Shown here piece after piece: positions 2,923 through 61,265 of a stretch of 64,000 bases of DNA. The translations under genes and the position numbers were made by a program. The first letter of the stretch is position 1, and each line of letters opens with the position of its first letter. The stretch comes from Periplaneta americana (taxonomy: Eukaryota; Arthropoda; Insecta; Blattodea; Blattidae), in contig NC_091125.1 of the NCBI RefSeq assembly GCF_040183065.1, forward strand, positions 126,773,621-126,837,620. The letters are read 5' to 3'. The notes under the pieces were generated by a model, which worked only from the letters and a program-made list of their open reading frames with translations, was not told the DNA's origin and ran no database searches.

Positions 2923-5900
2923 TGTTGTTTTGTTTCCTGCTGTCGTATATGGCTGTAGACATTCAGGCCGAGTACAAGGATGACAGCGATTATGACAGTT
3001 CGGAGGACGTCAGCTTAAATGGTATGTCAGCAATCACTGCACTACTATTATTACAATTCTTTATGAATTAAACATGACCACTTCATCAGAAGGATATATT
3101 AAATCAGAAGTGTTTAAATAATACTGTCAGGAGACAATAAACAAAGGCATACAGTGAGTTATTTCTGATGTAAGGAGAGTATAATAATGCGTACTTGGAT
3201 TCTATCTGAAAGAAAATACAGAAGGGAATGAAGTCCAAACTTAAATATAGTCGACATTTTATTAAAAAAATTATCTTGTTGTTGTTGTTAAATAATGCTG
3301 AATTCTTGGCAACAACCCATTAACTCTCTTGCTCTTCATTGTGATGTAGTAAAAATTATGGCTAGGCCTAAAGCCTATATTACACTATCAAATTTCTATG
3401 TCACAGAATATGATAAAATTTTTGATCAAATATATACGATCAAATGTCTGATTTTGGATATATTACACTATATCAAAGCTTTTATCACATCTTTCATCTC
3501 AGTTCTAATAATCAATCCACGACAGTTCTATGCATGTTGCAACTGCAAGTGCAGTAATGGTTATTGCATTAATCCTGGAGAAGAAATAAAAGAAAAAAAC
3601 ATATTTGGGTTAGAGATTGGGCAGGGAGAAGAGATACAAAAGGAATCCATCAAACTCTATTGAGAGAACTTCAGTGTGAAGATGTAAAATCCTATACTCA
3701 GTATTTAAGAATGGATGAGGTAACATTTCATGTGACTCATAATGTGATGTTAAAAGTCATGTGGTTTCACAGACCATGATATGATATATATGATATAATC
3801 TATGATTTATTGTCATTAGGTACAGCATCCCAAGTGGCTGATGGCCTTCACATTTGTCACACAGACCATATGTACTTAATGTCCGTCATTTTCTTTCTTC
3901 TTAGTCAAAGATTTTATCAAAGTTATGATGATGACCATAACTTTTATCACAGAACTATGTCGCAACTAGATGTGATCAAAGATGCTATATTACACTGTAA
4001 AAAAATTTATCATATATATTTTATCAAACTTCTGTGACACAGAAATTTGATAGTGTAATATAGGCCTAACTGTTTTAATGTAGGCACCACATTACTTTAT
4101 GTTAAGGCGCAATCCCTAACCCGTTTAAAGCGGTATGGCATAGTTGCGCCACGCGGTCAATTGGGAGACCTAGGCATGGCATAATTGCACTCCGAAGAAA
4201 CCAGGTAGCAGAAGGGATATGGCATAGTTGCGCCCCAAAGAAATCAGGTAGCAGAATGGACATGGCATAGTTGCGCTTCGATGGGCATAGTACACACGAA
4301 AGTGGTTGTCATAAAATAAATAAATTACTTAAAAATATTACAGTGATAGCTGCATTGAAATCAGGTAGGCCTAGCATATGATCAATTTTGCTATTTAAAA
4401 TAACACTTTTTTATTGATCACACACAATAAATGAACTACATTTTTTGTTTGTACATCGATATCTTAACCCTACGGTACAGGGTTTCGAAAATTGAAACTT
4501 TGAACCATTGTGAATTATTAACTCTTTACCCTTTTCACTAAACTTAACATTCATTTTTAATTAACCTCACTATACGCCACAGACGGTGTGAAAATCACTA
4601 ATAAAATCTCAAGACTGCTAAGGCCCCTATTCCAACGGCTCACTCATTTGAGTATATCAGTTAATAAAATACTGCCAACTTCATGGTGTTCATTTTAACG
4701 GTAGGCTATTGATAATCACTGTAAAAACAGTAGAAAAACAGTTAATAAAGTACTGCCAACTTCATTGTGTTCATTTTAATAAATATTTAAATCGAATAAG
4801 AAATCAATAAAGTTGGTTGATTATGAGACTCGAGTTTCCGTAGTGTCTTTTTCTCTACCTATTTCATCGGGGCGCAACTATTCCATGCCCCTTTCTCTAC
4901 CTGATGGAAAGGGGCGCAACTATGCCCACAAAACAGGGACCCTTTTTTATCTGCTGCATCTTATCTGACCGTGGGACGCAACTATGCGCTGCCCGTTTAA
5001 AGAACCACACCTGCCGTTGGTTAACGGTCCATATGACATAGCCGGAAGAAATGTCAGACAACTCTGGCGACCATATCCCCTGTTCGTCACTTAGGGGTGG
5101 CTTATGCATACAATGGCAGGTCACCACGCTGTAACGGCATTTTCTTCATTTTTTGGATGAAGCAGTTATACCGCTGCGACTCGGTCCCAAGAGCCTCGTT
5201 TGTTAAAAACAGGTTGCACCACGGGAAGGTGAGGATGGGATTTGAGTAGGAGAGGTTATGGAATGCACTTCACTACTCCTTGCAACCCTGCCAAAAATAT
5301 AAAGCAACGGAAATGGTAGATCATCAAAATTATAGTCAGAAAACTTCGAACTAAGTATTTGTTAAAAACAATGAACAATGACAACTACACTGAAGAACTA
5401 AACATAGTAAAATATATAGCACAAGACAATGGATATAACCCTAACGTGATAGACACACTAATAAAAAAGGCAAAACAAAAACAGAACAAACCAACACGAA
5501 CACCACGTGAGAATAAATACATAACGTTAACATATCACAATACCAATTCTCACAAAATTGCAACTTCATTCAAAAAACTAAAATACAAGATGGCATACAA
5601 AACAAATAATACAACACAGAAATATCTAAATAATCACATCAAACATTCAAATAAATATAATTCAACTGGAGTTTATAACTAAAATGTAATAGTTGCCCAC
5701 ATTTTTACATGGGACAGACAGGAAGATCCTTTCACAAAAGATACAGTATATGAACATATTAAAACTATAACCAAACCCTACATTACATCAAATTACGCAG
5801 AACACATTATCAACAATAATCATGACTACAATAATATAGAAACAGATATGGAAATTTTACATATCACACCAAAAAGTTCACAGTTAAACATCTTTGAACA

Positions 5901-7980: not shown

Positions 7981-8031
<51 letters not shown>

Positions 8032-10326
8032 CTCTAATAATAATCTCTAATAATTAGTGTATCAATCTTTGCGTCTGTAACAGTTGTGCAGCATGATTAT
8101 TCGTTTTATTATATTTTCTGTGGCGTTATCTCTGTACTAACATTGTTATTAATCTACTGCTATAGACCTATCAATAATATTTTGTAAAACGTTTCTACAT
8201 TGTCGCAGTATATAGGCGGAACACTATGTATGGACCTATCATATTATATATGTGGTAAATCAAATATTGAATAATTATTAATTACCAATAATAACTGTAT
8301 ATCGAAGTTTTTCATACTATTTTATTTATAACTTCATGTTCCTGTTTTGGTACGTTCCATTGACTGTTCCATTAAACGTTTGTCATAAATGCAGAAAATA
8401 AAGCCTTATTTTTCCCGTGTGAGCAAAACCTATGTGCATCTTATCTGTTGCCTTCCATACAAGATAAGACATGTCGGTGAGATGACCTTGTACTGTGCTT
8501 CTATTTATTACGAGCGTATCACGACCGATTGTATCTCACTCGAGGGTGCGACACTCGACCGAGTTCAAGCGAGCGATTTAACTCCAATGCAGCACTCTGG
8601 TAAGAACATTATGGAGGTACAGCTAGCTAGCTACAAGTGGGAGCGTAGTGAGGGACAGTCGTTTCCCCGTCCACCACTCATGCGCAAGTAGGTTTACGAC
8701 ATAATGAATGGCCTATACTGAATTTATAACCATATTGTAGTCATTTGTAGAAACAAGAACTTTTCCCTGTAAAAAAAAAAAAGAAAACGCAAAATTGGAA
8801 AGGAAAATTATGTTACATTTATCTTAAGAATGAACTCTGTGAAGTTACTGTCATTGAACATCTTTCACAGAGTATTACTGAATGAATGAATTTCAATTGG
8901 TTATTTTACGACGTTTTATCAACTGCTATCGTTATCTAGCTTCTGTATGAGATAAGGTGATTGTGCAAGCGAAATGCGTCCAGGTCCAATGCCGAAAGTT
9001 ATCAGGCATTTGCTATTAATGGGTTTAGGGAAAACCCAGGAAAAAACCGCAACCTGGTAATGTGTCCCAACCAGAATTTTAACCCGGGCCCGCTCATTTC
9101 ACAGTCAGGCATGCTAACTGTTACTCCACAGTGGTGTAATGAATGAATAAATGTATCAATGAATGAATGTCTATGTAGGTATGAATGAATTAATGAATGA
9201 ATATTCATAAAAATGTAACACAATTGTATATAAATTTGGACATCAGACTTACTGTAATTATAATCACTAAAAGTTAAGAAGTTAATCACATTTTTTAATT
9301 TTTTTTCTTCAGATCTTTTCGTCATAGATTCATCGGAATCTGAACGTGATTTCTCCCCGCCTGTGTGAGTATTAAACTGTAAAATTATTTATACAACATA
9401 TATTTATAGAGGGAGAGCCAATTAAGTGTGAACCAGCGAGTGCGCGGTGTTTGTGCTATCGTCGAGCGTCGTTGCTGTGTCCGGGTACAGTGATTGTATG
9501 TATGCAGCGTTGCCAAGGCTACACAGCCGCCATGTTTTTACCGATCAGACAATCATCTGTTCGGTGTCAGATGGGGAAATGATTGCAAACGGGAGTGAGG
9601 AACATTTTAAGATATGCTAATAATTATCATTATATGTCAACTAGCAAGAGAGAAGGATTTGATTAAATCATCAGCCCTCCAGTGAGGGTAACCACAAGGA
9701 TCCTGAATGCGGAACAATTATGTTTTTTTAAGTCCATTAATTAAAAAAAAATACTACATTTTGGATTTGGGATTCGCTTGATGCCAAAATGTCATATTGA
9801 CAAAATATACTTATAAACGACAGTAAAGTTCCTTGTAACATTATTCAAATCTCTGCTATAACGAAAATAGATATTCCTCAAATAAGATTTCTGTAAAGAT
9901 TGTGTAGGTCTAATTCTCAATGAGATTTGAACCTGACTAATTTGGAAGGTTCTCTTTTCAGTGACATGTGGAAGGGATAAACATTTAGGTGAAATGTCAG
10001 ATTAGTGATAGGAGAACTTAATGTACCCCGAGAACCTGTATCGGAGAAGGAATTTTTAACAAAAATGTAGGTAATTTCTATATGATTTGTAGCTAATCTC
10101 TAATGTTGTGAAAAATGATCAGTTAATTTATGATCTATAGCAGAGATTTTGTTATTGAATTTTGTGAAAATAAATTTTATCGACTTGAATTTATTATTAT
10201 TTTCTTTTTTTCTTATGTTCTAGCTTTGGAAGTGTATATCGGGGTTCGATTCCAGGTTATAGAGGACTAGTTCATACAAATTATGGAGGATCGTTTCTTG
10301 AGAAAAAGACGAGCTCGCAAGCCTGA
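2923..10326 (+). CDS. Secreted acidic peptide gene, copy 1 (exons 2-4)
   Basis: Three exons: 2923-3021, 9313-9364 and 10224-10326, each preceded by AG and followed by GT (gtatgt, gtgagt), with phases that join without a break. Exon 2 encodes a hydrophobic stretch (VLFCFLLSYMAVDIQA) typical of a signal-peptide core and cleavage site. An acidic run follows (EYKDDSDYDSSEDVSLN). Exon 3 gives DLFVIDSSESERDFSPP. Exon 4 gives VFGSVYRGSIPGYRGL and then VHTNYGGSFLEKKTSSQA before the stop. Exon 1, with the start codon, is outside the window or ends at base 6; in the other copies it supplies MNNTSL in the right phase. No cysteines occur after the leader. I do not recognise the family. The protein is probably exported, because the leader is conserved with copy 2 while the rest has diverged. 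Introns are filled with transposons. Confidence 0.72.
3372..4066 (+). mobile_element. Internally deleted PIF/Harbinger element with transposase remnant
   Basis: Inverted ends AGCCTATATTACACTATCAA (left) and GGCCTATATTACACTATCAA (right, reversed) lie between TAA target duplications at 3369-3371 and 4067-4069. That is the target and end signature of PIF/Harbinger. Codons 3606-3750 read WVRDWAGRRDTKGIHQTLL then RELQCEDVKSYTQYLRMDEVTF, which matches the N-terminal region of HARBI1-type nucleases (aromatic-V-R-x-W and L-R-M). The DDE catalytic part is missing. It lies in intron 2 of peptide gene copy 1. Confidence 0.75.
4100..5010. repeat. Foldback with arrays of the motif GGCATAGTTGCGCC
   Basis: The left side carries the motif, or one-base variants, at about 4136, 4177, 4228 and 4262 on the + strand, separated by spacers containing aggtagcagaa. 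The right side carries the reverse complement at about 4863, 4910 and 4975, with the matching ctctacctgat spacers. cccgtttaaag marks the outer part of both sides (about 4118 and 4997). No coding capacity is seen. It could be a foldback transposon. The function is unknown. Confidence 0.6.
5157..5262 (+). repeat. Dispersed ~105-bp repeat, inverted partner at 49.9 kb
   Basis: Matches the reverse complement of 49925-50028 at most positions (cagttataccgctg, gactcggtc, accacgggaaggtgaggatg). I cannot assign it to an element class. Confidence 0.65.
5341..6175 (+). pseudogene. Penelope-like retroelement 3' end (GIY-YIG), broken
   Basis: The first block (5359-5679) reads YITLTYHNTNSHKIATSFKK, then the start of a GIY-YIG nuclease, STGVYN. 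A frame change follows, and KCNSCPHFYMGQTGRSFHKR (from about 5684) gives the YxGQTxRSxxxR part of the GIY-YIG fold. Another frame change leads to SNYAEHIINNNHDYNNIETD, then MEILHITPK and a long tail ending at 6055. A reverse transcriptase followed by a GIY-YIG endonuclease is the hallmark of Penelope-like elements. The upstream RT core is absent. At least two frameshifts and a stop make it inactive. It sits in intron 2 of copy 1, in sense orientation. Confidence 0.8.
6098..6147 (+). ncRNA. Candidate hammerhead ribozyme core of the Penelope-like element
   Basis: Conserved box CTGAGGA (CUGANGA) at 6104-6110. A 5-bp helix follows, GACGC 6112-6116 with GCGTC 6123-6127 and loop aacacc, then GAAAC 6128-6132, a minimal helix III and GTC 6138-6140 as the expected cleavage triplet. 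TGT after the cleavage site can pair with ACA before the first box. Hammerhead motifs with short helix III are known in Penelope-like elements. One extra A (6111) between the first box and helix II departs from the canonical core. A related copy near 19945 has the same extra A. Activity is not shown. Confidence 0.5.
6219..6328. repeat. Nested palindrome, about 110 bp
   Basis: Outer arms gcctataatggtagtaatta and taattaccattataggc pair. The centre contains a second hairpin, tatgaaacgagcgcaagcg with gtttcata. The rest of 6330-7560 shows no coding signal or repeat that I can classify. Confidence 0.7.
7578..8599 (+). mobile_element. Non-autonomous hAT element, copy 1
   Basis: Perfect 8-bp target duplication GTAAGAAC at 7570-7577 and 8600-8607. 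The imperfect inverted ends begin CAGAGGTCTGCATCGGA and, from the other side, CAGAGTGCTGCATTGGA. An inverted second copy lies at 26204-27197 with its own 8-bp duplication. The inner (AAT)n tract at 7981-8030 is also present in the second copy. No transposase is present, and the short open frames in it are chance. It lies in intron 2 of peptide gene copy 1. Confidence 0.9.
8892..9137 (-). mobile_element. tRNA-derived SINE, antisense in intron 2
   Basis: Read on the minus strand it has the tRNA-like head (gggttaaaattctgg, a decayed B box) and the family body. Flanked by aatgaatgaat at 8881-8891 and 9138-9148 (11-bp target duplication). Confidence 0.8.
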
Positions 10327-20039: not shown

Positions 20040-21100
20040 ATTTTTTTCTCTATTCTAAGGATATATTTCTAAAATGTGGATACTTATTGCTTTACTAGGT
20101 ACATCAAAGATACTGTAACTTTTTTACATCATAGGCCTATACTTAAAATTTGTACAAGGAGATAGATTTTGAAAATATGCCCAATTTTTTTTTACAAAAA
20201 ATGGCATAACTCAAAAAATATCTGGGTGACATGCATGAATATTTGTAGCATGTGTATATACCATATGCGGAATATGTGTGACAAATATGAACCAACTAGC
20301 TCAAAAACTACAGGAGTTAGAAATTTCACCCATCTCCTCCCTTAAATGTAATCTCTTCTAGCACAAATACAGACTATCCCAAAAGCATGTTACCATAGGC
20401 CAAATCAAATATTTTCTCATATTCTTTACAGTTTCCTAATTCTGAACCCAAAATGACCAGGAATGTTTGTTTGACCCGCAGTCACAGGGAAGTTTCTCTC
20501 GAATTTAATCGGTTGTACCCAGAACGGCAGTTACGTGGGAAATGTTATATCTGCACGTCTGTTGAAGTTCTCAATGGTCAACTGAGCAGTTTGTCTTCTA
20601 GGAATCTCGGAAGTTTTAACGAGACTTCCCACGCAACGGTGTGTCTACTACCTCTGAAGAAAAAATTATTTAAGATTTTTGGGTATGGTTCCAGGCTTAT
20701 GGAATAGTCTGTAGAGAAAAATGGGTAATTACAGACTAAGATGATGTTTCCTTATATTTGTCCAACCTGTGCTATAACTCATTTTAAGATAGCTGGATAC
20801 CTCAATAACACCTCAAATTCCATTATAATTATTTCTACTTATTCAATTAAGCCTACGTATCTGAAACACCTCAGCTACAGTGACATGATTTATTGGTTCT
20901 ATGTTATTCCACGGTTTTTCTTATCAGCAATGGAACGAATTTCCTCAAATAATGTAGTTAAATCACCGCAATTACGTTACATGGGCCTTCTCTTAAATTC
21001 ACCATCACTAGACGTCGAGAAAGACTCCTATTACTTTCATAATAGGATATTTTCAAGTTTATTTTAACTATGTTTGCGTAAAATTCGAATTTTTAATAAT
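20040..21100. other. Spacer upstream of peptide gene copy 2, no gene seen
   Basis: AT-rich. The last 50-100 bases before 21121 match the flanks at about 47.99 and 59.85 kb and are part of the duplicated upstream region. The open frames at 20453 and 20741 show no recognisable domain. Confidence 0.5.
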
Positions 21101-21120
21101 ATTCGTATTTATACTCACAA

Positions 21121-21950
21121 ATGATTTTAAGCAACCCGGAGATTCATTCCCGCCCTTACATAAGCCCGCCATCGGTTCCAATCCTGAGAAAGATTAATCC
21201 AGTCTACCATCATATTCCACCTCCCCAAAATCCATTTTTATATTATCCTCCCATCTACGTCTCGGCCTCCCCAAAGGTCTTTTTCCTTCTGGCCTCCCAA
21301 CTAACACTCTATATACATTTCTGGATTCGCATACGTGCTACATGTCCTTCCCATCTCAAACATCTGGATTTAATGTTTCCCATTACGTCAGGTGAAGAAT
21401 ACAATGCGTGGAGTTCTGCGTTGTGTAACTTTCCGCATTCTCCTGTAACTTCATCCCTTTTAGCCCCAAATATTTTTCTAACAACCATATTCCCAAACAC
21501 TCTTAACCTCTGTTCCTCTCTCAAAGTGAGAGTCTAAGTTTCACAACCATACTGAACAACCGGTAATATAACTGTTTTATAAATTCTAACTTTCAGCAAT
21601 TTTGAGAGCAGACTGGATGAAAAAAGCTTCTCAACGGAATAATAACAGGAATTTCCATTTTTATTCTGCGCTTAATTTCTTCTCGAGTGTAATTTATATT
21701 TGTTACTCTTGCTCATAGGCACTAGAATTTTTTCATGTTTTAGAAGAATAAATTTTCAATTTTTATATTCACATTTTGTACTATGTTATGGTCACAAGAC
21801 ATAATCATATACTTTGTTTTTTTGAGGTTTACTTCCAAACTTATCTCCTTACTTGCTTCAAGTAATATTCCTGTGTTTCCCCTAATCGTTTGTGGGTTTT
21901 CTCCTAACTATTCACAACATCCCCATAAACAAACAGCGTTGAATAATAAT
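21121..21950 (-). pseudogene. LINE-A fragment in the shared upstream region
   Basis: Minus strand, from the stop side: NPRVP-type end, RIQKCI, RWEGHVARM, GAKRDEVTGECGKLHNAEL, REEQRLRVFGNMVVRKIFG. Further upstream come VNLKKTKYMIMS and NPQTIRENTG, which lie just after the RT YADD motif. The same fragment, truncated at about the same point, occurs at 48.04-53.93 kb (split) and 59.90-60.72 kb with the same flanks, so it was inserted before the duplications. Confidence 0.85.
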
Positions 21951-22087
21951 ATTAATAACAATAACAATAGCAACACTAATAATTTTACTAAGAATTCTCC
22001 ACAGTAGCACAGTTGCCCTTACCCAGAATTATTAGTTTCATATCTCCAAAACTTTATATTATAAGTATCCTCTTCCTTTCCACTTCA

Positions 22088-22340
22088 GTGGAATAACGGT
22101 CAGCGCGTCTGGCTGCGAAACCAGGTGGCACGGGTTCGAATCCCGGTCGGGGAAAGTTACCTGGTTGAGGCTTTTTCCGGGGTTTTCCCTCAACTCAATA
22201 CGAGCAAATGCTGGGTAACTTTCGGTGCTGGACCGCGGACTCATTTCACCGGCATTATCAGCTTCATATCATTCAGACGCTAAATAACCTAGATATTGAT
22301 ACAGCGTCGTAAAATAACCTAATATAATTAAAATTAAAAT
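22088..22340 (+). mobile_element. tRNA-derived SINE, empty sites in two paralogues
   Basis: B box gggttcgaatcc and full family body. Target duplication ttccacttca at 22078-22087 and tttcacttca at 22341-22350. The paralogous positions near 54017 and 60856 read ttttcacttcact without the insert. It lies about 300 bases upstream of peptide gene copy 2. Confidence 0.9.
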
Positions 22341-22515
22341 TTTCACTTCACTGGACCTCCAGCCATCCACTTCTCTTCCGCTCTTCCCATCCAACGCACT
22401 CTTCCTATTTCCCGCTCCATTATTTTTCTTGGAATCTATTTGTATGAATGTTCTTATGTCCAAACCAGCGAAGTCTTATTTCTGCTACTATATCATCTAA
22501 AAAAAATTTAACCTG

Positions 22516-22536
22516 TATTTAAGGGAATTCCAAGGC
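22516..22536 (+). promoter_or_regulatory. Possible core promoter of peptide gene copy 2
   Basis: TATTTAAG at 22516-22523 with a cagta initiator-like string about 20 bases on. TATTTAAG is retained before copy 4 (61031-61038) and altered to tatgtaag before copy 3. If transcription starts here, the AG at 22629-22630 need not be a splice site. No expression data. Confidence 0.3.
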
Positions 22537-22630
22537 AGTAGTTTTCGTTGGGTTTCGTATCAAATGGTTTTCATAACAACGTGAATTCAAAAAATATTTA
22601 TTTTGATAAATCTTCTGTTTATAATTTCAG

Positions 22631-23071
22631 AAAAAATACTTCAGCGCCTTGACATAACTCCCTGATGCTACTTCCATAAGGAGGAAACTGAAACGAATTC
22701 AAAAAGAAGAAAACGGTATAAAGAGTATAACATGAATAACACATCACTAGGTAAACTTACAATTTAAATGTATCACAAATTTTAAAACTTCAATTTGGAA
22801 TGACTAAGCACTGATCCGAGGCACGATCAGGTATTAACGTGCTAGTTAATTTTTCCAAAATTATAGGAAAATTACTAGTGTTCTATTGTTACCAGTATTC
22901 ATTCAGGCAGTGTAACTTTATTTTTTTTTTCTCTTTTCCGTGTAAAAAACTGAGGTATCTAGTTCTTGCATTCTGGTAAGGATTTGATGATGTTGACACA
23001 CAGATATACAGATTTATATAGGATTTTACTTGGTAGCATATTAAACACAGACAAAACTATTATCGTACAAG

Positions 23072-23116
<45 letters not shown>

Positions 23117-25801
23117 TTTTATTTTCGCTGGCAGAGTTAAGGCCATAAGGCCTTCTCTTCCACTCAACCAGCCTTAATCAATACAATACATAAATTTAAA
23201 TTACAAATATTTTCACTACACTTAAAAGGTTCTCCAGCAATAATCTTCACTACACATTTATTTAAATTTAGATAAATCTATAAGGTAAAGTAGTAACTTA
23301 ATTTATGAGCTAATTTAATTCAATGAATTATAATTAATTTAATATTTGAGATAGCTAGGAAAATAATGAAAATTAATTTAATATAAGCTTACTAGGACTA
23401 TGTTACAGAGAGAATATATATATTTCTATTTCTATAATGAGAATATTAATGTAATTGCCATTAGAGGTTTTGTAAATTTATTTAGAGAAATTAAAGATAA
23501 TAATAATAATAAGAATGGACAGATGTTAGTTTCATTATAAGTAACAAATATTAATCAGCAATTCATCTGTTAAGTAAGAATTTATGTAATTTTGACCTAA
23601 ATGAAGCTATTGTCCAACAACCCCTTATATCACTCGGAAGCGAGTTCCAATTTCTAGCAACTGAAACTGTATAGGATGAAGAATATAAAGATGTCTTGTG
23701 GTAGGGTATAATGAGTAAATTGTTATAATGAGATCTTGTACTTAGCTGATGATATGCGGATAAATTTTGAAAACGAGAAGCCAAATAGATTGGGGTAGCG
23801 GTGCGCAGAATTTGAAATAAGAGAACAAGAGAATGCAGGGCTCATCGATCGCTTAGCCTTAGCCAAGACAGAGTTTGGAAAGACGGGGAAATATGATTAT
23901 ACTTACGAATATTACAAATATAACGGACGCACGCATTATGCACACGTTGTAGCCTGTTGCTCAAATTTGCATTTAGGTTACTTAATATAATATCGCAGTA
24001 GTCAAAGTGTGGCATCACGAGTGTTTGTACAAGGATTAATTTTAATTTATCAGGAAGAAAGTTCTTCAGTCGCTTTAATGAGTGAATAATGGAAAATATT
24101 TTTTTGGAAGTGTAATTCACTTGTTCATTCCATTCCAGGTGACAATCCATATAAATACCAAGGTTCTTCACAGTCGTACTGTATGGAATAGTAGTATTAT
24201 TTACAATTATCGGTGGCAAATTTTGTTTGTCACACTTCGATCTTTGATGTTGTATTAAGATTGCCTGCGATTTACTTGCATTTAAATTAAGTCCGTGCGT
24301 TTTCGACCATATGGATATAGAATTCAAGTCATCATTAACTTTAGTTATGGCGTCATTTATGTAATCGAGGAAAAAAATGTTTAATATTTCCAAAGTGTTA
24401 CTGCTGAAGTTGCACCTAACCCCTTAATTCCATTTATTTTCGATAGGTTTTTACGTTTTTTTATAAGAATAAATGATACATGATCGATGCATCGAGATAA
24501 ACTTTACCTTTAAGATTACTTTATATTCCACTGTATTGGGCACTAACATCCTCGAACTGATTTGAAGACAGAATTTGATCTGAAGATGGCTTTGTATCTC
24601 TTACAGGTATAATATAGTCTGATCCGTTAGGGAATACATAAATTAAAATCGCTATAGAAATTATATCAAAAGAGATATTAAAGTTATTTTAGTTGCAATA
24701 TGAAGTTCAAACACGGGAGTTTTGTATCATTGTTTTTAGAAACAAAACAATCAGATGGTCACTTAGCAACAACTAAATAAACAAAAGACCGTTTAAAGGC
24801 AACTAGCTACCGACATCTGTATTGCTGTTTGCAAATTTGAAAGTGTAACAAAAGTCAAAGTTATTTTAACCACGAGTATGATGTCCGCAGAGCTACGAAA
24901 TACAAATTCATGAGGTTATGGTACCGCATATCTGAAGAAAGTGGATCTTCAACATGCCAAATACTGATCTTGTTTGCACTGATAATATGATATCAAGTTC
25001 CAATAAGAAATCTTGGACGACTCTCCGTAGAGATAGCTATGTCATACACAAATTGATAACATCACCTGGAACTTTACCTCTACCGCATGCAACGTGTTCA
25101 GGCATTATACGTTGTAGATCTCCAAAAAAGGATCACATTGTTTGTTTTTCACGCCACAGCTGCAAGAAGAAAACAACATGGGTATGGTATTCGAGGGGAC
25201 GGCTGAAGAAAAGAGGTCGTCAATAACATTCGACATCAAATTAGTGAGGTCATGGTGGTCAATTACATAGCATCCAAATTCTCCACAGTTGACGCCATCC
25301 GAATGATGATGACTATTCACGGCGATCCATGAATATTGATGATTTCAAAGCAAAGATTATCCTTGTTCCTGAAAAAGCTTCCTACCCCTGAGATGTTACA
25401 CATGGGAGGAATAAGACGATATAAATTTAGTTGTGTAAGCAATGGTGGCAAATCGAGTTATAATGTGGGAAAAACCGCCATCTCTCTAGAATATACTTAT
25501 ACCTCCCTGAAAAACATGGAGCAGCAGTTCTGATGTTACAGTTTTTTTATTTTATGTGTTCCGAAAAGAATCAACCTGTATTTTTAAAGAATAAACTTAA
25601 ATTGTAAACCAAATATTTCTAATCTTGAACTTAGTAAATCATTTTATTTTACAGTGCTTTTGTATTTCCTGATGTCATGTTTGGGTCTAAATATCCACGC
25701 TCAATTGAAGGATGACAGCGAGAACGATACTACGGAAGAAGACAGCATATATGGTAATAAACGTATTAAAATAAATTGTGTAATATATTCATAGTATGGT
25801 A

Positions 25802-25855
<54 letters not shown>

Positions 25856-26757
25856 ATTCTTCTTTTCACTCAGGGTTACCATTGTGCCTTTCCTGTGCTT
25901 ATCCGACAATATCTTAATGTGTGGTCTAAAGCCACGCTAGCCTCGTGACCAGAGAATATGTTTACTTGTAAATAATGTTTCCTAATGTTCGAAATTCTCA
26001 CTCGAGTGAGAAGAATCTACTGATGAGTCCAGTAATTTATGCTTATAATAATAACAATAATATTTATATCCCCGCCCTTACCGAGGAGTACAGTAAAAGT
26101 TCCAATTTGGCTTGGTCTAATACCTGGTTAGGTTCTTTCCCCCCCCCCCCCGCCAAGGTTTCTCTCAATTGTAAACAGTGTTAGATAATCCAAAAGTAGC
26201 GAACAGAGTGCTGCATTGGAGTTAAATCGTTCGCTTGAACTTGGTCGAGTGTCGCACCCTCGAGTGAGATACGATCGTTCATGATACGCTCGTAATAAAT
26301 AGAAGCTCAGTACAAGGTCATCTCACCGACAAGTCTTATCTTGTATGGAAGGCGACAGGTAAGATACACATATGTTTTGCTCACATGGTAAAAATTAGGC
26401 TTTATTTTCTGCGTTTATGACAAACGTTTAATGGACAGTCAATGGAACGTACCAAAACAGGAACATGAAGTTATAAATAAAATAGTATGAAAAACTTCGA
26501 TATATAGTTATTATTGCTAATTAAAAATTATTCAATACTTGATTTACCACATATATAATATGATAGGTCCATACATAGTGTTCCGCCTATATATTGCGAC
26601 AATGTAGAAACGTTTTACAAAATATTATTGATAGGCCTATAGCAGTAGATTAATAACAATATTAGTACAGAAATAACGTCACAGAAAATATAATAAAACG
26701 AATAATCTTGCTGCGCAACTGTTACAGACGCAAAGATTGATACACTAATTATTAGAG

Positions 26758-26792
<35 letters not shown>

Positions 26793-29700
26793 TAGAAAAC
26801 TTGATACAGTTCTTGCATTATCGTGATTGTGTTCTCCGTTTATAATAATTACATTTACATCCAATAACATCTACCAGATGTGGCAAAAAGAAAATCACTC
26901 CTATGTGGAGAAAAAAAAAACCATTTACCTACAACATTTATATTTCATTTTAAAGCAAGTTTTGTAGTTGTACTATGGAAAGGTTAGTTAAACACTGCAA
27001 AGTTTTGAAATGATAAACATCTATGTTGTTACTACACAGTTCATCACTGTAACAAGAACGAATGTCTAAAGCTCGGCTTATACTGTTCGAGGATTTATCG
27101 CTCATGACAATTTTACCTATCATGCATGTGCGCTACCTATCGGATTATGCTATGAACTACTTGGCGCTCGAGCGAAAACGTCCGATGCAGACCTCTGGTA
27201 GCGAATATCGGAATCATTTCCCCAATTATCACCTTGCAGTCACCAACCACATCAACGCCAGATAACAAAACATTTGATGCAGTAGGCCTGTACTTAAATT
27301 ACGTATTTAGAAAGACATATAATCAGCATTATCATCATTATCATCTTCCTAACAGGTGGTAGTCCTAGAAGGACTATTCTGGTCTACAAAAGTTTTCCTG
27401 CCATCTCTTCACAGAGCGACAAAGTGATCTATTCCCTGTTGGTCTATAGTTTAAGATCGCTCGAGGAATCCTTGTTCTAGGCATACGATTGACATGTTGG
27501 AGCCATTAATATTAGAGGAGAAAAATTCGCTCCGGCGCCGGGGATCGAACCCGGGACTTTGGTTCTACATACCAAGCGCTCTCACCATTGAGCTACACCG
27601 AAGTCCAATCCACAGCACCGGATCGAACTCCTCTCCTCCAGTGTTTTTTTTTTCCTTTGTAGCCTGACTCCAAGTTGGGCATATATGTTGACATTTTATT
27701 AAGTCAACTGTCATTATACAAGGAGCGCACTCAATTGAGTCACTTAGTAGCCGGGATTCCACAATAATGTGCACAGTAATCTGTAAAGAAATATTTTTCT
27801 CCTCTAATATTAATTGTTACCATAACAGATATATTCTGTAGGACCAAAAAATTATAATCTTTATTAAAATGGAATATTCTACTTTAAAGAAAGAAGCTAT
27901 GATTGAAGAAGAATAAAGATTTTCTCTTCATCTACAATGAAATATATAACATTCATTACAGATAATATTAAAATGGATGTTGGAATTGTAATAAATTTAC
28001 AATACTGTTATTGTTTAGTCAACTGTTACTTATTGTTTAGAGGTTTGAACCTCGTAACACCAATAAGGTATCACTCATGAGGCAACTAGGCCAGGAGATA
28101 ATGGGATAAGGTGGCTAGTTCCTTTCCCCCTCCAATGCATGCATCGCCGATTAGTTACATATTCCACTATGAGACTTCAGATTTACAATAGGCCTACTAG
28201 CAGACAGAAATAATAAATGAGAGAATACACAAGAAAAATGCGGAATATAAAACCACATTGGAAAAAGTGAATTTCCAGATAGATAAAATGAATGGTAATT
28301 TAAATAACCATAAGAAAGAATAGGAAGATGAGAATAATAATATAAAGAATAAGCTAGTAAAGGGAGAAAAGATATGAAGTGAAAGATGGACATTGGTACC
28401 GAGTATTAGGAAAATAATGAAAAGGACAAGGGAGAATTAGAAGAGGAGAACAAAAGAAAAACAAAGGTGTATATAAAAATAAATATAAAGACAAATTAAA
28501 TAAGAGTAAGATGGAGCGAGCGAGAAATGTAAATAGAATGGAGAGTACTACTGTATTACAGTGGAAGTGAAGCCACTGAAAAAAACGACAAGAAGAGGAA
28601 ATAACAAGGAAAGAAATGATAAAAGAGCTCCTGTGGTATTTTTTTACTTGGTTATTTTACGGCGCTCTATCAACTACTTCAACTACTAGGTTATTTAGCG
28701 TCGATGGTATTGGTGATAACGAGATGAGGCCGAGAATTCGCCGTAGATTACCCGAATTTTGCCTTACTGTTGGAAAAACCTCGGAAAAAACCCAACCACG
28801 TAATGAGCCCAAGTATTACCCGTAAATTAGAGCATTAATCCCTTTACGCTTCTACAATGCTTTACAGTTAGGGGATACTCGGGTAGTATCGGACATCGGG
28901 TAGTATCGGACAGTGCGTTTCTTTCATCTACCACCATATGGTAGTACCTGAATGACATGGTTACGTTTCTCTATGAGACATCACAGAAACGTAACCAAGT
29001 CAATCAGGTACTATCATCGTGTGGTAGATGAAAGAAACTCACTGTCCGATATTACCCGATGTCCGATACTACCCGACTCTCCCCTACTTTCTATATCTAT
29101 GAATTTTTTTCAGATGATTTCGTCATAGATTCATCGGAATCAAAAGACCAACCTGAGTTCGTAACACCACTGTGAGTATTTGCTGTGTCGTTATTTGTTT
29201 AAAATAAATCAATTTCTATTACCATAATTACTGTATGATTATTGTATTGCTGATAATTTATTATATTCATAAAAAGTGATAAGGATTTATGAAATCCCTT
29301 GGATTTTGTGAAGCATCTTCATCAGGGATGTCAAACGCAAATCTCAAGTGGGCCAAATGATCTAAATGTAATGTTGTGTGGGTCCCAAAAAAAATCATAA
29401 TATTATGTAATGACTAAAGTGTTAGGGATTTATTTACAGAAATACATATTATTTGCTAGAGAGAGAAAAAACAACACAGTATCTTTTATTTCTTTCCTGT
29501 CACCAACCAACGTATAAGCTCAAAATCGCTAATCTGCTCAACATTTCATGTTTAATTTAGAAACACTGATTTCGGGCCTCATTTCATTTGTTTCCCCATA
29601 AAAACCTGGGGCCCCACTGATATGTCAGATGCCGCGAGTTTGACACGTGTGGTCTTCACTCCTGGTATGTAATTTTTAGGTTAGGCAACGATGAACTTAA

Positions 29701-32372
29701 GGATGAAGAAAATATACCCCAGGCGGGATGAATACATCCTTCCCAATAATAAAAAACCTTTGAGAATGACACAATGACACAATCAAAGGGGAGACGGGAG
29801 GAGAAATAATTAAATAGTACGCAATCGAACGCCCTTACAAGGGAATTTCAGGCCGTGAGGAAAAATCTGTGTGAGCTGCAAACGTGTTCATAACTTGGCT
29901 CTTTCCGTTTGTCACCGATTCATAAAAGGAAATTAAGAGAATTTTTATGGGGATTGGTCCAAAACATGGATCATATGCGGAGACAAAGAGGAAGGCGGAA
30001 AACTAGAAAAGATTGGAGAAAGCTGAGTTTGCAGTGAAAGACCTGCTCTTGGGCAGAACACTATGCATGAATGGTCGAAAATAGATCTAAAGTAAAAGAT
30101 CTCTCATGAGGGGAAGGAATGCTGCAAGTACGATTAGCAGCGTTGTTTAATAGCATGGTAGGGTCGCCGATGATGTTAAAAGCCTAGACGTAACTAGAGG
30201 TGAGAGGCGGGCGTCGTTATCCTCGCTAGACTAGGGGTCCAAGCTCTTGGACTAGACGAATGACGATCGAGTTAGTTCGTCCATAAGTAGCTACTAAAGG
30301 CGGTACGTGAAAAAAGAGGATGTGAAGGCTTTAATTAGGAAAATGCCGAGATATATGTCACAGAGTATGTAGGTACGTCGGCCAATTCTTTAAGAACTCA
30401 TCCCTTTGATTTAGCTCCTTATAAAAATCATAGCTGGATGAAATGTCTCAATTTAGGGGCTTAGTCAATTGAGTATTAAGTGAGTGACTATAATGAAATA
30501 TGTCCCGATCGACCCTAAGGGCATAATGTGGGGGAAGGGTATGGTATTCCAACCAAGGCAGAAAAATAGAATGTGTTTTCCTGGTTTAGAGAGTGGTTAT
30601 GATGAGGTACGACTTTATGGAGTTATTACAATGATTCCAGTGCGGAGAAACAAAAGGTACGCAATCTCTTTGTAGGCAAATTTTGGGCTGTGAGCCTGTA
30701 TCATGTAGGCCACTTGCCTCGCTCAATTTTTCACCGATCAGGACAAGTAAAAGGAAGTTAAGAGTAACGCCAAAACATGGACGTGTGAGAAACATGAACC
30801 ATGAATGAATGTATGAATGAAAGATGAAATGAATGAATGAATGAATGAATGAATGAATGAACAAGCGATGAGCAGATGTGCAGATGAGCGGATGAACGAA
30901 TGAGCGGATAAGTAGATGTGCAGATGAACGGATGAGCGGATGAAGGAATGAGCGGATGAAGGAATGAGCGGATGAACGAATGAGCGGATAAGTAGATGTG
31001 CAGATGAACGGATGAGCGGATAAATAGATGTGCAGATGAACGGATTCGTTCGAATGAGCGGATAAGTAGATGTGCAGATGAACGGATGAACGAATGAGCG
31101 GAGAAGTAAATGTGCAGATGAACGGATGAGCGGATAAGTAGATGTGCAGATGAACGGATTCGTTCGAGTGAGCGGATAAGTAGATGTACGGATGAACGAA
31201 TGAGCGGATAAGTAGATGTGCAGATGAACGGATGAGCGGATGAACGAATGAGCGGATAAGTAGATGTGCAGAAGAACGGATGAAGGAATGAGCGGATGAA
31301 GGAATGAGCGGATGAGCGGATGAACGAATGAGCGGATAAGTAGATGTGCAGATGAACGGATGAGCGGATAAGTAGATGTGCAGATGAACGGATTCGTTCG
31401 AATGAGCGGATAAGTAGATGTGCAGATGAACGGATGAACGAATGAGCGGATAAGTAGATGTGCAGATGAACGGATGAGGGGATGAACGAATGAGCGGATA
31501 GTAGATGTGCAGATGAACGGATGAGCGGATGAACGAATGAGCGGATAAGTAGATGTGCAGATGAACGGATGAGCGGATGAACGAATGAGCGGTAAGTAGA
31601 TGTGCAGATGAACGGATGAGCGGATGAACGAATGAGCGGATAAGTAGATGTGCAGATGAACGGATGAACGAATGAGCGGATAAGTAGATGTGCAGATGAA
31701 CGGATGAACGAATGAGTGGATAAGTAGATGTGCAGATGAACGGATGAACGAATGAGCGGATAAGTAGATGTGCAGATGAACGCATGAACGAATGAGCGGA
31801 TAAGTAGATGTGCAGATGAACGGATGAACGGATGAGCGGATAAGTAGATGTGCAGATGAACGGATGAACGAATGAGCGGATAAGTAGATGTGCAGATGAA
31901 CGGATGAACGAATGAGCGGATAAGTAGATGTTCAGATGGACGGATGAACGAATGAGCGGATAAGTAGATGTGAAGATGGACGGATGAACGGATGAGCGGA
32001 TACGTAGATGTGCAGATGAACGGATGAACGGATGAGCGGATAAGTAGATATGCAGATATGCAGATGAACGGATGAGCGGATACGTAGATGTGCAGATGAA
32101 CGGATGAACGGATGAGCGGATAAGTAGATGTGCAGATGGATGGATGACCGGAAGAACGAATGAGCGGTAACTCGTCTCCACTGTTAATAAATGTTCACTT
32201 TATTATCTAATCTATTACTAAAATTTCCGGATATAATTTTATGAAATAATTTATATTTTCTGGAATTTATTATTATTTCCTTCTATTTTTATGTTACAGC
32301 TTAGCAAAATTACTTCGGACTCCGTTTTCAGATTATAAAGGAACTGTCCAAGAAGGAAATATCTTGAGTTGA
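22631..32372 (+). CDS. Secreted acidic peptide gene, copy 2 (complete, four exons)
   Basis: Exons 22631-22750 (ATG at 22732), 25655-25753, 29114-29171 and 32300-32372. Every junction is AG|...|GT, and the coding lengths 19, 99, 58 and 73 join to 82 codons plus TGA. Residues 1-22 start MNNTSLVLLYFLMSCLGL and end NIHA, a good signal peptide with cleavage before QLKDDS. The middle, DDSENDTTEEDSIYDDFV then IDSSESKDQPEFVTP, is strongly acidic. The C-terminus reads LLAKLLRTPFSDYKG, then TVQEGNILS. It aligns exon by exon with copy 1: exon 2 has identical length, FVIDSSES is shared and exon 4 has diverged strongly. There are no cysteines after the leader. I do not know the family. Likely a small exported peptide or peptide precursor. 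A run of basic residues for processing is not evident. Alternatives: a recently dead copy or a lineage-specific orphan. Splice sites are inferred, not shown. Confidence 0.75.
23069..24372 (-). pseudogene. Jockey/CR1-like LINE, 3' half, one stop codon
   Basis: Minus strand from about 24372: DYINDAITKVNDDLNSISIW, LNASKSQAILIQ, VKNLGIYMDCHLEWNEQV, LPDKLKLILVQTLVMPHFDY and SWLRLSDR. A TGA follows (Arg CGA to TGA, near 23840), and the same frame continues ALHSLVLLFQILRTATPIYL to KLHKFLLNR and a stop at 23563. This is the region after the RT catalytic YADD. The 5' part is missing. The 3' UTR runs to a (ATT)n tail at 23070-23115. It lies in intron 1 of peptide gene copy 2, antisense. Confidence 0.85.
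23070..23115. repeat. (AAT)n microsatellite, LINE 3' tail
   Basis: Directly adjoins the end of the minus-strand LINE 3' UTR. Confidence 0.8.
25800..25853. repeat. (ATT)n microsatellite in intron 2 of copy 2
   Basis: Perfect trinucleotide run 47 bases after exon 2. Confidence 0.95.
26204..27197 (-). mobile_element. Non-autonomous hAT element, copy 2 (inverted)
   Basis: Reverse-oriented relative of 7578-8599. Perfect 8-bp target duplication GTAGCGAA at 26196-26203 and 27198-27205. Ends CAGAGTGCTGCATTGGAG and, reversed, CAGAGGTCTGCATCGGAC. It contains the homologous (ATT)n tract at 26755-26792. It lies in intron 2 of peptide gene copy 2, the same intron that the first copy occupies in gene copy 1, at an independent site. 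Confidence 0.9.
27505..27815 (-). mobile_element. tRNA-like SINE unit with inverted flanks
   Basis: Minus strand contains a tRNA-like head with B box gggttcgatcccc (27541-27553 region) and an A-box-like segment from agctcaatggtgagagcgc. Flanks attagaggagaaaaat (27511-27526) and atttttctcctctaat (27794-27809) are inverted, not direct. The same arrangement is seen at 48.44-48.89 kb. Confidence 0.6.
28643..28826 (-). mobile_element. SINE fragment without tRNA head
   Basis: ggttattttacggcgctctatcaac, given in short as ttattttacggcgc, and gttatttagcgtc match the 3' end of the tRNA SINE family in reverse. The tRNA-like part is absent or unrecognisable. Confidence 0.6.
28871..29094. mobile_element. 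Palindromic MITE adjoining exon 3 of copy 2
   Basis: Almost the whole 224 bp folds back. The arms begin GGGGATACTCGGGTAGTATC and, reversed, GGGGAGAGTCGGGTAGTATC, and continue through atctaccac and gtaacc. TA on each side. A second copy lies at 56451-56662. Its right end is 19 bases from the first base of exon 3 (29114), so the branch point of intron 2 is probably within the MITE or the short remaining stretch. Confidence 0.85.
29323..29651. mobile_element. Probable non-autonomous hAT element
   Basis: Ends CAGGGATGTCAAACGCAAAT and, reversed, CACACGTGTCAAACTCGCGG share TGTCAAAC, common in hAT ends. Flanks atcttcat and gtcttcac match at 6 of 8 positions. No coding region. The rest of 29660-30800 (intron 3) shows no clear feature. 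Confidence 0.55.
30815..32167. repeat. Minisatellite with 40-bp unit made of five 8-mers
   Basis: The dominant period is 40 bp, clearest at 31620-31980, built from related octamers (gatgaacg, gatgtgca, gataagta, aatgagcg). Variants drop or add octamers or carry gattcgttcgaa. The left edge (about 30829-30862) is a plain (GAAT)n run, probably the seed. About 30 units lie in intron 3 of peptide gene copy 2, ending about 130 bases before exon 4. The minus strand is open for 531 codons only because the unit lacks stops in all three frames. Confidence 0.95.
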
Positions 32373-32542
32373 CAACTTCAACAATAGCTTCCTGAACCAC
32401 TGATAGTAAAAGTAGGCCTATACATATAGAAAAAGCAAAAGCAAGAATTTTGCAAACTTTACAATACTGAAGATGCAATGAAGAAACTAATAGTGTTTGT
32501 GTATAAATTCTAAGAACACTTTAAAATGTAATCAGAGAAGAC

Positions 32543-32548
32543 AATAAA
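32543..32548 (+). terminator. Polyadenylation signal of peptide gene copy 2
   Basis: AATAAA about 170 bases after the stop codon in acaataaaattgc, similar in placement to copy 1. From here to 33385 I see spacer only. Confidence 0.6.
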
Positions 32549-32784: not shown

Positions 32785-33385
32785 ACTTTTACATATTACT
32801 ACTAGATAGTGGCATGATTAAATCTTTCAGTTCATTATTTTCTCTTGTGTTATAGTCCGGGAAAATTGCAGAAGAACCCATTTGCAAATTATCTATCAGG
32901 AGTTCACGGTTGGATAGAATCTCCAATTGCAAATGCACCTTGGAAGCAACAGAAATATGCGAAAACTGCAATTTATTATGACCTAAACTCACTCGAAAAT
33001 TGAAATTCTAAGAGAGGAGTGAATAAGTTGTAAGTTTTGTAATACTGAGAATTTAACATTAAAATAATGACAAAATATAAATAATTTAAATGTTATATTA
33101 TATTCCAAAACATGTATGCAACAATTAACACAAAACTTGAAAATAAAGACTGAAAAATTCACACATTTGTGTATTTCTTTTAATATTCAGACACTTAGTT
33201 CAAACAATCTTAGTAGTGTTTCCCAATACAAGGAACTTCCTGCCTTACATGCAAAGTTATTAAGAACTCTTAGGTAGTAGCTTTATTGCTTATCTATGAC
33301 ACTACCAGCTTCTTCACACAAACATCATATTGGGAATAAGAAAGTGAAAATATGACGTAAATGGTCGAATTTCCACTATATTTCC

Positions 33386-38749: not shown

Positions 38750-40661
38750 ATGTCATATGAAGAGGAGCAAGCACATATACAAAAGTTATTTTATCAGTAT
38801 TTATTATACGACGGATTGTCGAGTTTCAGTGATGGATCATCTGATAATTAGGTTCCATCGTCACATAGCTCGTCTGAGTCAGGAAGTGACCGCCAACTTG
38901 TAAGAAAGAAGTACAAGAGTACAACCCAAAGGTAAGTATCGAATAGTTTGTCAGTATTTGTGGTGTATACCATATATGCAGTTATTGTATAAATGTATAT
39001 ATTCATAGTTTTCATAAAATTATATAGTATAGCCCTATATAGTACAAAGTCTCAAGTTTTTAGTCTATCTGTGGTTTTATTCTTTTTCCAGAACAGCACA
39101 TCAGAACCAGGGTCTACCAGTTGAGGACAGTAATGCTGCTGGATCATCGATTGATACAGGACTATATAATTGATGGGGACAAAGGTGAAAATTATGGAAA
39201 TGGCATGAACACTGACAATATAAACTGGGGAGTAGTATCAGAAGTCAATATGAAGTTATTACAGTGCAAAATGTTGGAGTTCATCCATAAGTCTCTCAGA
39301 ACTATGCTGACAAAATGCCCATTGATTTCTTCTTGCTTTTCATTGACGATGAAATTATAAATATCTTGGTAACTGAAACAAACAGATATGCGTCTCAAAA
39401 TTGAACGATCCTCTGTTAGCACCTAAACCCAGATTGCGCCAGTGAAAAGAGATCAATCTAGATGAAATGAAATTTATGGGCATTTTGAGTTGGATGGGGT
39501 TGGTGAGATAACCAAAACTCGAAAACTATCGGTCAAAAAGAAAGATTTATGACAATTATGTAAAAAGTTTATATCACGCAATAGGTTTCAACTTTTCTAT
39601 GCATGTGGCATTTTCATGATAATGAAAATTTGGGGCAAATATCAAAGATTCGGAAATTGTCTCCGTTGTTGGAAAAATTGAAAGCAATATATCAAGCAAT
39701 TATCGTACCAGATGAGGAAATATGTATGGATGAAACATTGGTCCCCTTCACAGGGCGTTTATCATTTCGACAGTATATAAAAACAAGAGGCACTAGTTTG
39801 GAATAAAGCTTTTCAAATTATGTACGAGTATAAAGTGTGGTTATACATATATTGTGGCAAAGAAACCAATAGTAGTGAACCATTACTTACATGTGTGGTG
39901 GAAAACTTAGTGGGAGATTTGTTCGGAAAAGGTTATATATTATTTACGGATAATTATTACATAAGTATTACTCTGGCTCACAAACTTCTTTCCCGCAATA
40001 CTCATTTGACGAGTACTCTCCGAAAAAATCGAAAATGCAAGCCAAATGACGTATTCCATGCTCAATTGAACAAAGTAGACATTATTGCGAGAGAGTGGCA
40101 CAGGTTCCATTGTTTCTAAGTGGAAAGACAAACTGGACGTCCTAATGCTCAGTAGCAAATATTTAGATGAAACAGTAACTGTGCAAAAAACATGGCAAAG
40201 AAATTACAAAGCCCAAGGTCATAATTGACTATAATAATTCTAAAGCATTTAGTGACATATCAAATCAACTGAAGGCCTGCAATACGTCGCTGAGACGTGG
40301 TATCAAGTGGTACCGTAAGCTGGCAATTGAAATGATTTTCGGTACAACAATTGTGAACGTCCATATCATATTTTCTACAGTAACGAAAAGTAGATTCAAA
40401 GAAATTCTGTGCGAAGAGCTGCTTGGAATGAAGAATGCTGAGAATGATGAGCAAATTCCAGAAGTAAATATTCCAGAAAACCATGTCTTGGAAGAAACTG
40501 ATAAAAGAAAACGCTGTGAGGAGTGCTATAAAATGAAAGGTAATGTTTCTGGTAGAAAAGAAGCACAGAGAAAATTATCTAATTTAAGATATTTATGTAT
40601 TTCCTGTGACAATCATTATTGCATTCCTTGCTTTTTCGTAGTAAATCAGTGTACTATGTAA
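38750..40661 (+). pseudogene. piggyBac-type transposase, decayed, one probable intron
   Basis: Begins MSYEEEQAHIQKLLYQYL with an acidic Ser-rich start and an in-frame TAG. A GT-AG intron is likely from 38931 (gtaagt) to about 39091 (tttttccag). Conserved blocks follow in several frames: KMPIDFFLLFIDDEIINILV (about 39308), VPDEEICMDETLVPFTGRLS (first catalytic Asp in MDE, about 39707), KGYILFTDNYYISI (second Asp, about 39929), TLRKNRKCKP, LSSKYLDETV, VIIDYNNSKAFSDISNQL (third acidic site), RRGIKWYRKLAIEM, and a cysteine-rich end RKRCEECYK...YLCISCDNHYCIPCF that is the usual C-terminal finger. Multiple frameshifts and stops. TTAA-flanked ends were not found. piggyBac cuts and pastes at TTAA. 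Confidence 0.88.
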
Positions 40662-50028: not shown

Positions 50029-50229
50029 CAGAGGAAATGCTGCATTACAAGCCTGTCCAGAGGCTAAAAGTGGCAGCCCCACTACTGGACTACCTAACGA
50101 TAAGGCTAGTAACCTATCTTAGGGAAAACTACATTACTTTCAAGCCTCAAACAAGCAGTATAAGGATAGATAATTTGATGACAACCCAGAGCAAGTCAAC
50201 GGTTAAACGAAATTGGAAAAAAACAAAAT

Positions 50230-54307: not shown

Positions 54308-54523
54308 AAAAAATACTTCAGCACCTTGGCATAATTCCCAGATTCTACTTCCATAAGAAGGAAACTGAAACGAATTCAAAAAGAAGAAAACAGTACAAAG
54401 AGTATAACATGAATAACACCACTAGGTAAACTTACCATGTACCTATGTACCCTGAGAACCTGCATCGAAGAAGGCATTTTTAACAAAAATGTAAGTAATT
54501 TCTGTATGATTTGTAGCTAATCT

Positions 54524-54561
<38 letters not shown>

Positions 54562-55503
54562 GGGTTTTAAGGAACCCGCAGGTTCATTGCCGCCCTCACA
54601 TAAGCCCGCCATTGGTCCCTATCCTGAGCAAGATTAATCCAGTCTCTATCATCATATCCCACCTCCTTCAAATCGATTTCAATATTATCTTCCCATCTAA
54701 GTCTCGTCCTCCCCAAAGGTCTTTTCCCCTCTGGCCTCCCAACTAACACTCTATATGCATTTCTGGATTCGCCCATACGTGCTACATGCCCTGCCCATCT
54801 CAAACGTCTGGATTTAATGTTCCTAATTATGTCAGGTGAAGGATACAATGCGTGCAGCTCTGCGTTGTGTAACTTTCTCCATTCTCCTGTAACTTCATCC
54901 CTTTTAGCCCCAAATATTTTCCTAAGAACCTTATTCTCAAAAACCCTCAATCTCTGTTCCTCTCTCAAAGTGAGAGTCCAAGTTTCACAGCCATACAGAA
55001 CAACTGGTAATATAACTGTTTTATAAATTCTAACTTTCACATTTTTTGACAGCAGACTAGATGACAAAAGCTTCTCAACCGAATAATAACAGGCATTTCC
55101 CATATTTGTTTTGCATTTAATTTCCTCCCGAGTGTCATTTATATTTGTTACTGTTGCTCCAAGATATTTGAATTTTTCCACCTCTTCGAAGTATAAATCT
55201 CCAACTTTTATAGTTCCATTTCGTACAATATTCTGGTAGCTAATCTCTAATGCTGTGAAAAATGTTGAGTTAATTTATGATCTATGGCAGAGATTTTGTT
55301 ATTGAATTTTGTGAAAATAAATTTTATTTACTGGAATTTATTATTATTTTGTTTCTTTCTTATGTTATAGCTTTGGAAGTGTATTTCGGGGTTCGATTCC
55401 AGATTATAGAGGACTAGTTCATATAAATTATGGAGGATCGTTTCCTGAAAAAAAAGACGAGCTCGCAAGCCTGAGCAACCACTCATATAGAAAATATAAA
55501 TAG
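54308..55503 (+). pseudogene. Peptide gene copy 3, exons 1 and 4 only
   Basis: Exon 1 (54308-54425, ATG at 54409) lacks 2 bases relative to the other copies. Intron 1 sequence (gtaaacttacc) is joined after about 10 bases to intron 3 sequence matching 10021 onward, so exons 2 and 3 are deleted. Exon 4 (55371-55503) reads FGSVFRGSIPDYRGLVH, then INYGGSFPEKKDELASLSNH and ends at TAG 55501-55503. One extra A relative to copy 1 lengthens it. If exon 1 were spliced to exon 4, the frame would stay open (MNNTTS joined to FGSVFRG), but the leader is gone. A LINE-A copy sits in the remaining intron. Most likely a pseudogene, possibly a leaderless derivative. Confidence 0.75.
54526..55235 (-). mobile_element. 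LINE-A insertion with 13-bp target duplication and TAAG tail
   Basis: gtagctaatctct flanks the insert at 54513-54525 and 55236-55248. The paralogous spacer (10089-10101) has it once, uninterrupted. The minus-strand frame 55181-54567 is open for 204 codons: MEKFKYLGATVTNINDTREE, CKTNMGNACYYSVEKLLSSS, GCETWTLTLREEQRLRVFEN, GRPEGKRPLGRTRLRWED and the end RAAMNLRVP. The 3' tail is (TTAC)n on + (54526-54560). 5'-truncated, recent. Confidence 0.95.
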
Positions 55504-61145: not shown

Positions 61146-61265
61146 AAAAAATGCTTCAGCATATTGGCATAATTCCCTGATGCTACTTCCATTAAGAGGG
61201 AACTGAAACGAATTCAAAAAGAAGAAAACAGTACAAAGAGTATAACATGAATAACACATCACTAG
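61146..61265 (+). CDS. Peptide gene copy 4, exon 1 (partial gene)
   Basis: Matches exon 1 of copy 2 over its length, with intact ATG at 61247 (MNNTSL plus one base) and donor gtaaac. No exon 2 is seen before the window ends; in copies 1 and 2 it lies about 2.9 kb further, i.e. beyond 64000. Whether the gene is complete cannot be judged. Confidence 0.6.

Follow-up and report, generated by a model that had tools for sequence, protein, structure and literature searches.

The window, the whole 64,000-nucleotide stretch of the Periplaneta americana genome that was analysed, carries a gene of four small exons, gene B, with exon lengths of 120, 99, 58, and 73 nt (Table 1). The four-exon structure, the 82-residue product, and the downstream AATAAA proposed in the earlier note are all borne out: AG precedes each exon, GT follows exons 1-3, a stop codon closes exon 4, and the polyadenylation motif lies where it was placed. 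Once the exons are spliced and read from the ATG at 22732, the coding parts sum to 19 + 99 + 58 + 73 = 249 nt and encode MNNTSLVLLYFLMSCLGLNIHAQLKDDSENDTTEEDSIYDDFVIDSSESKDQPEFVTPLLAKLLRTPFSDYKGTVQEGNILS, 82 residues followed by a stop. Upstream of this ATG the same frame has a stop, with no further ATG between them, and the coding part of exon 1 supplies MNNTSL and the first base of a Val codon. The introns between the small exons have phases 1, 1, and 2. The left border of exon 1 is less secure. Copies C and D retain the AG at 22630, but they retain the entire block of about 22340-22766 too, so that an unspliced upstream start is equally possible and a splice acceptor at this AG is not established. 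Exon 1 also holds a tiny upstream reading frame (22665-22679, MLLP and a stop) ahead of the start codon.

Table 1. Exons of genes A and B and of copies C and D, with the LINE fragment in copy C; positions are those of the window.
Feature	Position	Strand	Remarks
Gene A exon 2	2923..3021	+	exon 1 would fall left of the window
Gene A exon 3	9313..9364	+	52 nt
Gene A last coding exon	10224..10326	+	AATAAA 10471-10476
Gene B exon 1	22631..22750	+	5' border uncertain; coding part 22732-22750
Gene B exon 2	25655..25753	+	remaining signal-like segment, predicted cleavage after NIHA, acidic core
Gene B exon 3	29114..29171	+	DFVIDSSES motif
Gene B last exon 4a	32300..32372	+	coding part includes the stop; 3' UTR runs as far as AATAAA 32543-32548
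Gene B alternative last exon 4b, predicted	32856..33003	+	acceptor AG 32854-32855, stop 33001-33003, AATAAA 33142-33147
Copy C exon 1	54308..54425	+	coding 54409-54425, which lacks two nt relative to B and D
LINE 3' fragment in copy C intron	54513..55248	+	13-nt target-site duplication (54513-54525, 55236-55248)
Copy C exon 4	55371..55503	+	open for 43 residues; resembles exon 4 of A
Copy D exon 1	61146..61265	+	coding 61247-61265; remainder would fall beyond the window

A protein search with the gene B product returned four candidates, all of which pass at E up to 1 and all of which are from P. americana. One of them, P0001, is identical to the product at 82 of 82 residues (E 2.2e-46), and its entry reads "uncharacterized protein [Periplaneta americana]", with two member sequences and the UniRef name "isoform X3". 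Gene B is an annotated protein-coding gene model of P. americana, and the exact match rules out a chance joining of unrelated AG/GT segments. The genome annotation in general, according to PMC12774602, was produced by the NCBI pipeline from RNA-seq and other evidence. The gene had been presented as undescribed and hidden; because it stands in NCBI and UniRef as an uncharacterized protein, it is not hidden, and "undescribed" applies only to its family and function, for which no description was found in the literature searched. The further claim of a real gene for an exported peptide draws support from the identical public entry, from the paralogues, and from the hydrophobic start, export itself being predicted from the sequence.

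Gene B has a candidate alternative last exon, 4b, which was overlooked in the earlier note. It is 51% identical to the annotated tail of P0003/P0004 (tblastn of that tail on the window, E 2.2e-9), and since it is in frame from acceptor to stop, gene B could yield a 107-residue isoform. This 107-residue product is absent from the proteins returned by the protein search, and the use of exon 4b in gene B is therefore a prediction. The 4a and 4b tails resemble each other over their initial 13 residues, with 3 of 2000 shuffles reaching the score for gene B and 0 of 2000 reaching it for P0002/P0003; at the nucleotide level, the score of exon 4a against exon 4b is reached by 30 of 300 shuffles and is not significant. 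Over 32941-33003 the window has WKQQKYAKTAIYYDLN, the P0003 tail has VEATEICENCNYDQ, and an alternative window frame reads EATEICENCN. Two compensating indels seem to separate exon 4b from the P0003 tail, with the terminal SLEN and the stop retained.

Gene B belongs to a local tandem cluster made up of A, B, a broken copy C, and a copy D of which at least exon 1 is present. Exons 2, 3, and 4 are present in just one further copy within the window, gene A. Paralogues with equal phases and exon lengths had been claimed; the phases (in A, for exons 2-4 only) and the 99-nt length of exon 2 are indeed kept in A, but the other lengths differ, exon 3 measuring 52 nt in A vs 58 in B and the last coding exon 103 vs 73. 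The product of gene A exons 2-4 was predicted from the window before the P0005 record turned up, and the two are identical at 84 of 84 residues. In copy D the coding bases of exon 1 are identical to those of gene B. Copy C has a shortened intron between exon 1 and exon 4; exons 2 and 3 were looked for in the window and not found, and because the intron fuses B-intron-1-like to A-intron-3-like sequence, they are gone. Exon 4 of copy C has an acceptor AG, a 43-residue frame in the phase required by exon 3 of gene B, and an AATAAA. The public proteins P0005 (gene A), P0001 (gene B), P0002, and P0003/P0004 probably point to four copies. P0002 and P0003/P0004 have no encoding exons in the window and could come from one shared locus.

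A mobile-element gene was rejected on a Pfam scan of nine among the 28 listed open stretches that reach 110 aa or more: five of the nine gave endonuclease, reverse transcriptase, or transposase matches, some of them below cut-off, and none of these five overlaps an exon. LINE frame pieces occupy 50182-52995, where endonuclease (PF14529, PF03372) and reverse transcriptase (PF00078) lie in adjoining stop-bounded stretches and a third piece has no Pfam match; a DDE_Tnp_1_7 transposase remnant (PF13843) at 39781-40661 is in two reading-frame pieces, the second match being weak. Blocks in which a LINE 3' fragment accompanies exon 1 and its upstream sequence are found around B, C, and D (21047-22766, 53797-55237, and 59826-61280), in differing arrangements. 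An element of about 1 kb sits in intron 2 of both A (7576-8599) and B (26204-27199), 92% identical; the two are oppositely oriented and so probably represent separate insertions. Within the same intron of B, a palindrome at 28869-29086 (102-nt arms, 90% complementary, with a 14-nt loop) ends 27 bases before exon 3; it is MITE-like and has an inverted copy, 95% identical, at 56446-56665. The intron just before exon 4a contains a large satellite-like array (30835-32163), partly in 8-nt steps and with 40-nt spacing. Rfam at gathering cut-offs gave two tRNA matches (RF00005), both on the minus strand, at 27530-27602 and 48463-48535; the recurrence of 27507-27596 at 48443-48529 and 48729-48814 suggests a tRNA-derived dispersed repeat.

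Relatives outside P. americana were not found in three protein searches. With a limit of E 10, a profile search over 98 candidates retained 5 proteins, every one from P. americana, and P0005 as the query matched only itself; because these homologue searches depend on exact 5-residue words in common and on similar length, distant relatives may escape them. No family had been recognized at the outset, which agrees with the Pfam and NCBIfam searches: Pfam gave nothing above cut-off for the A and B products or for P0001-P0005, and NCBIfam nothing above cut-off for P0001-P0005. Below cut-off there were two Pfam matches (E 0.05 and 0.074), both to P0002 and both to families other than Attacin_C, and one weak NCBIfam match, also to P0002. 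A PDB sequence search returned 0 matches at E up to 1. Phage records searched by tblastn also gave 0 matches, although as a control this says little in the present case. Six peptide strings of the family had no occurrence in the full texts of 5.39 million papers, and among the matches listed, as judged from titles and abstract starts, the family is absent from the cockroach literature on salivary proteins, secreted peptides, accessory glands, and orphan genes.

The five public proteins, P0001-P0005, are 82-118 residues long and uncharacterized in NCBI/UniRef, under names that indicate no function. Their alignment has 28 invariant columns; these include FVIDSSES, the longest invariant run, which occurs in all five and in window genes A and B. 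All five also begin with a signal-like MxNTSLV start and carry I-x-A ahead of the acidic core, where signal cleavage would follow the (-3,-1) rule. Hydrophobicity was tested in P0001 and P0005, where the stretch at residues 6-16 reaches 11-residue means of 2.57 and 2.48. Over their 27-37 residues the acidic cores have net charges of -9 to -16, and the mature chains, for the assumed cleavage site, have pI values of 4.05-4.29. P0002 and P0004 contain extra copies of an NTEED-like repeat; the tail of P0003/P0004 is of the 4b type, and that of P0005 is of another type. An AlphaFold model of the gene B product has a mean pLDDT of 54.9 and a pTM of 0.24 from an alignment of five sequences, with 0 of 82 residues at pLDDT 90 or more, residues 59-82 below 50, and a block mean of 75 reached by the signal-like start alone. 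The low pLDDT is consistent with a disordered chain, or the five-sequence depth of the alignment may instead explain the score.

What such an acidic chain might do admits more than one reading. The core had been suggested to be phosphorylated or to bind cations, which would make the product a secretory protein of casein or SIBLING type. S-x-E is the kinase site motif enriched in secreted phosphoproteins of that kind, and an SSE within FVIDSSES is invariant in all five proteins. An Asp+Glu fraction of 0.37-0.44 in the acidic cores would suit this idea as well, and S/T-x-x-D/E motifs slightly exceed expectation in each of the five (3-5 seen vs 2.40-3.21). The S-x-E counts themselves give it no clear support: the cores hold 1-2 where shuffles lead one to expect 0.74-1.12, and with so few sites the excess, found in four of the five proteins and reversed in the other, is never more than about 1.3 motifs, so that sites for acidophilic kinases are not clearly enriched. 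We consider a phosphorylated, cation-binding protein improbable.

The tails invite another reading, in which the product would be a peptide precursor whose acidic core serves as an inhibitory or solubilizing pro-segment until proteolysis frees an active antimicrobial-like or hormone-like tail. An acidic stretch does stand ahead of paralogue-specific tails, and the blattellicins (PMC7712779) likewise have a Gln/Glu stretch before their Attacin_C domain. The segment after FVIDSSES is mildly positive in A (+2), B-4b (+1), and P0002 (+2), but the charge is 0 for B-4a and -6 for P0003/P0004, and these inconsistent, opposite charges weaken the case for an active tail. Moreover, the longest invariant run lies in the acidic part and outside the tail, and Pfam has no family above cut-off to offer. 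We therefore regard a precursor of this type as rather unlikely, albeit the likeliest of the alternatives to the reading that we prefer, in which secreted peptides of one family share a constant core and differ in exchangeable tails.

Comparison of A with B bears on whether the protein is under selection at all. Their second exons are identical at 69 of 99 nt, and by codon position at 23/33 (first), 27/33 (second), and 19/33 (third), with dN 0.31 and dS 0.75 (21 and 9 differences), a dN/dS of about 0.41. The exon 3 core has 2 nonsynonymous and 0 synonymous differences; for exon 2 and the exon 3 core together, dN is 0.27 and dS 0.51. Read in this way, exon 2 has a coding pattern that suggests mild constraint. 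The flanking noncoding sequence is about as similar: identity is 56/71 at the 3' end of intron 1 vs 69/99 for exon 2 (Fisher p 0.22, not significant), 81/110 at the end of intron 3, and 107/146 in the 3' UTR vs 46/73 for the coding exon 4a (p 0.12, not significant), with the limit that alignable intron ends are a favourable sample and bias the comparison of exon with intron. FVIDSSES excepted, the protein is thus evolving about as fast as adjoining noncoding sequence, which leaves it under weak, relaxed, or diversifying selection.

The same numbers could be taken to mean that gene B is a relic, or a member of a transcribed but decaying family, with no present function. Exons 2 and 4 are the coding exons that fail to outdo their surroundings, copy C has lost two exons and gained a LINE insertion, and exon 4 differs between A and C by 4 nonsynonymous and 1 synonymous changes in 27 codons. 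Against decay, exon 2 has diverged by about 30% between the two genes, yet gene B and exons 2-4 of gene A still have an intact frame, splice sites, stop, and poly(A) signal; five annotated proteins keep FVIDSSES, and the dN/dS of exon 2, drawn from only 30 differences, is the 0.41 given above. A functionless copy strikes us as improbable too, to the same degree as the phosphoprotein.

We conclude that the cluster very probably encodes a genuine family of orphan peptides that are secreted and have been duplicated in tandem. The fuller account, which we think probable by a smaller measure, is of a lineage-restricted family in which the core is constant and the tails are exchangeable, with a function that is inferred. 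The product would enter the secretory pathway and be cleaved after I-x-A to leave a short extracellular peptide that is strongly acidic and for the most part disordered. Exons 1-3 would provide a constant module of signal segment, acidic core, and FVIDSSES; the tail module differs among paralogues and may be swapped within a gene through last exons 4a and 4b. More tentatively, and with less than even confidence, we suggest a lineage-specific peptide of exocrine, gut, immune, or reproductive secretions in which the acidic core acts as the conserved carrier or binding segment and the tail confers target specificity; a salivary, immune, or reproductive tissue would indicate a cockroach-specific interaction. 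That the whole cluster works as one combinatorial locus, exons 1-3 being joined to 4a, 4b, or the last exons of broken copies, seems to us very improbable; if true, one acidic carrier with many tails would amount to a cockroach-specific diversification of secreted peptides.

Gene B as an annotated model was already known, and its kind, ordinary tandem, fast-changing secreted peptide genes, is known as well; new here are exon 4b, the broken copy C, and the modular layout of constant core and variable tail. Small multi-exon orphan genes are easily missed, and in this case a reading of raw sequence matched the pipeline annotation to the residue. The cluster pairs a constant acidic part with tails that change fast, probably has an alternative last exon, and includes a copy that has lost exons and gained a mobile element; it offers a compact, testable case of a lineage making new secreted peptides.

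Among known insect peptides, defensin, termicin, and drosomycin have a conserved framework with six or more cysteines. For defensins, six cysteines are given in PMC7712779. The family described here does not match these cysteine-rich antimicrobial peptides, its mature chains having 0 Cys (A, B-4a, B-4b, and P0002) or 2 (P0003 and P0004). A closer parallel is offered by the blattellicins, which PMC7712779 describes as recently evolved, duplicated antimicrobial genes of Blattella germanica with a Gln/Glu stretch before an Attacin_C domain. Blattellicins have 242-267 residues and the Attacin_C domain (PF03769), whereas P0001-P0005 have 82-118 residues and no Pfam match above cut-off, to Attacin_C or otherwise. 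Both are novelties of a cockroach lineage, present as recent duplicates, that combine a signal peptide, predicted in P0001-P0005, with an acidic stretch ahead of the C-terminal part.
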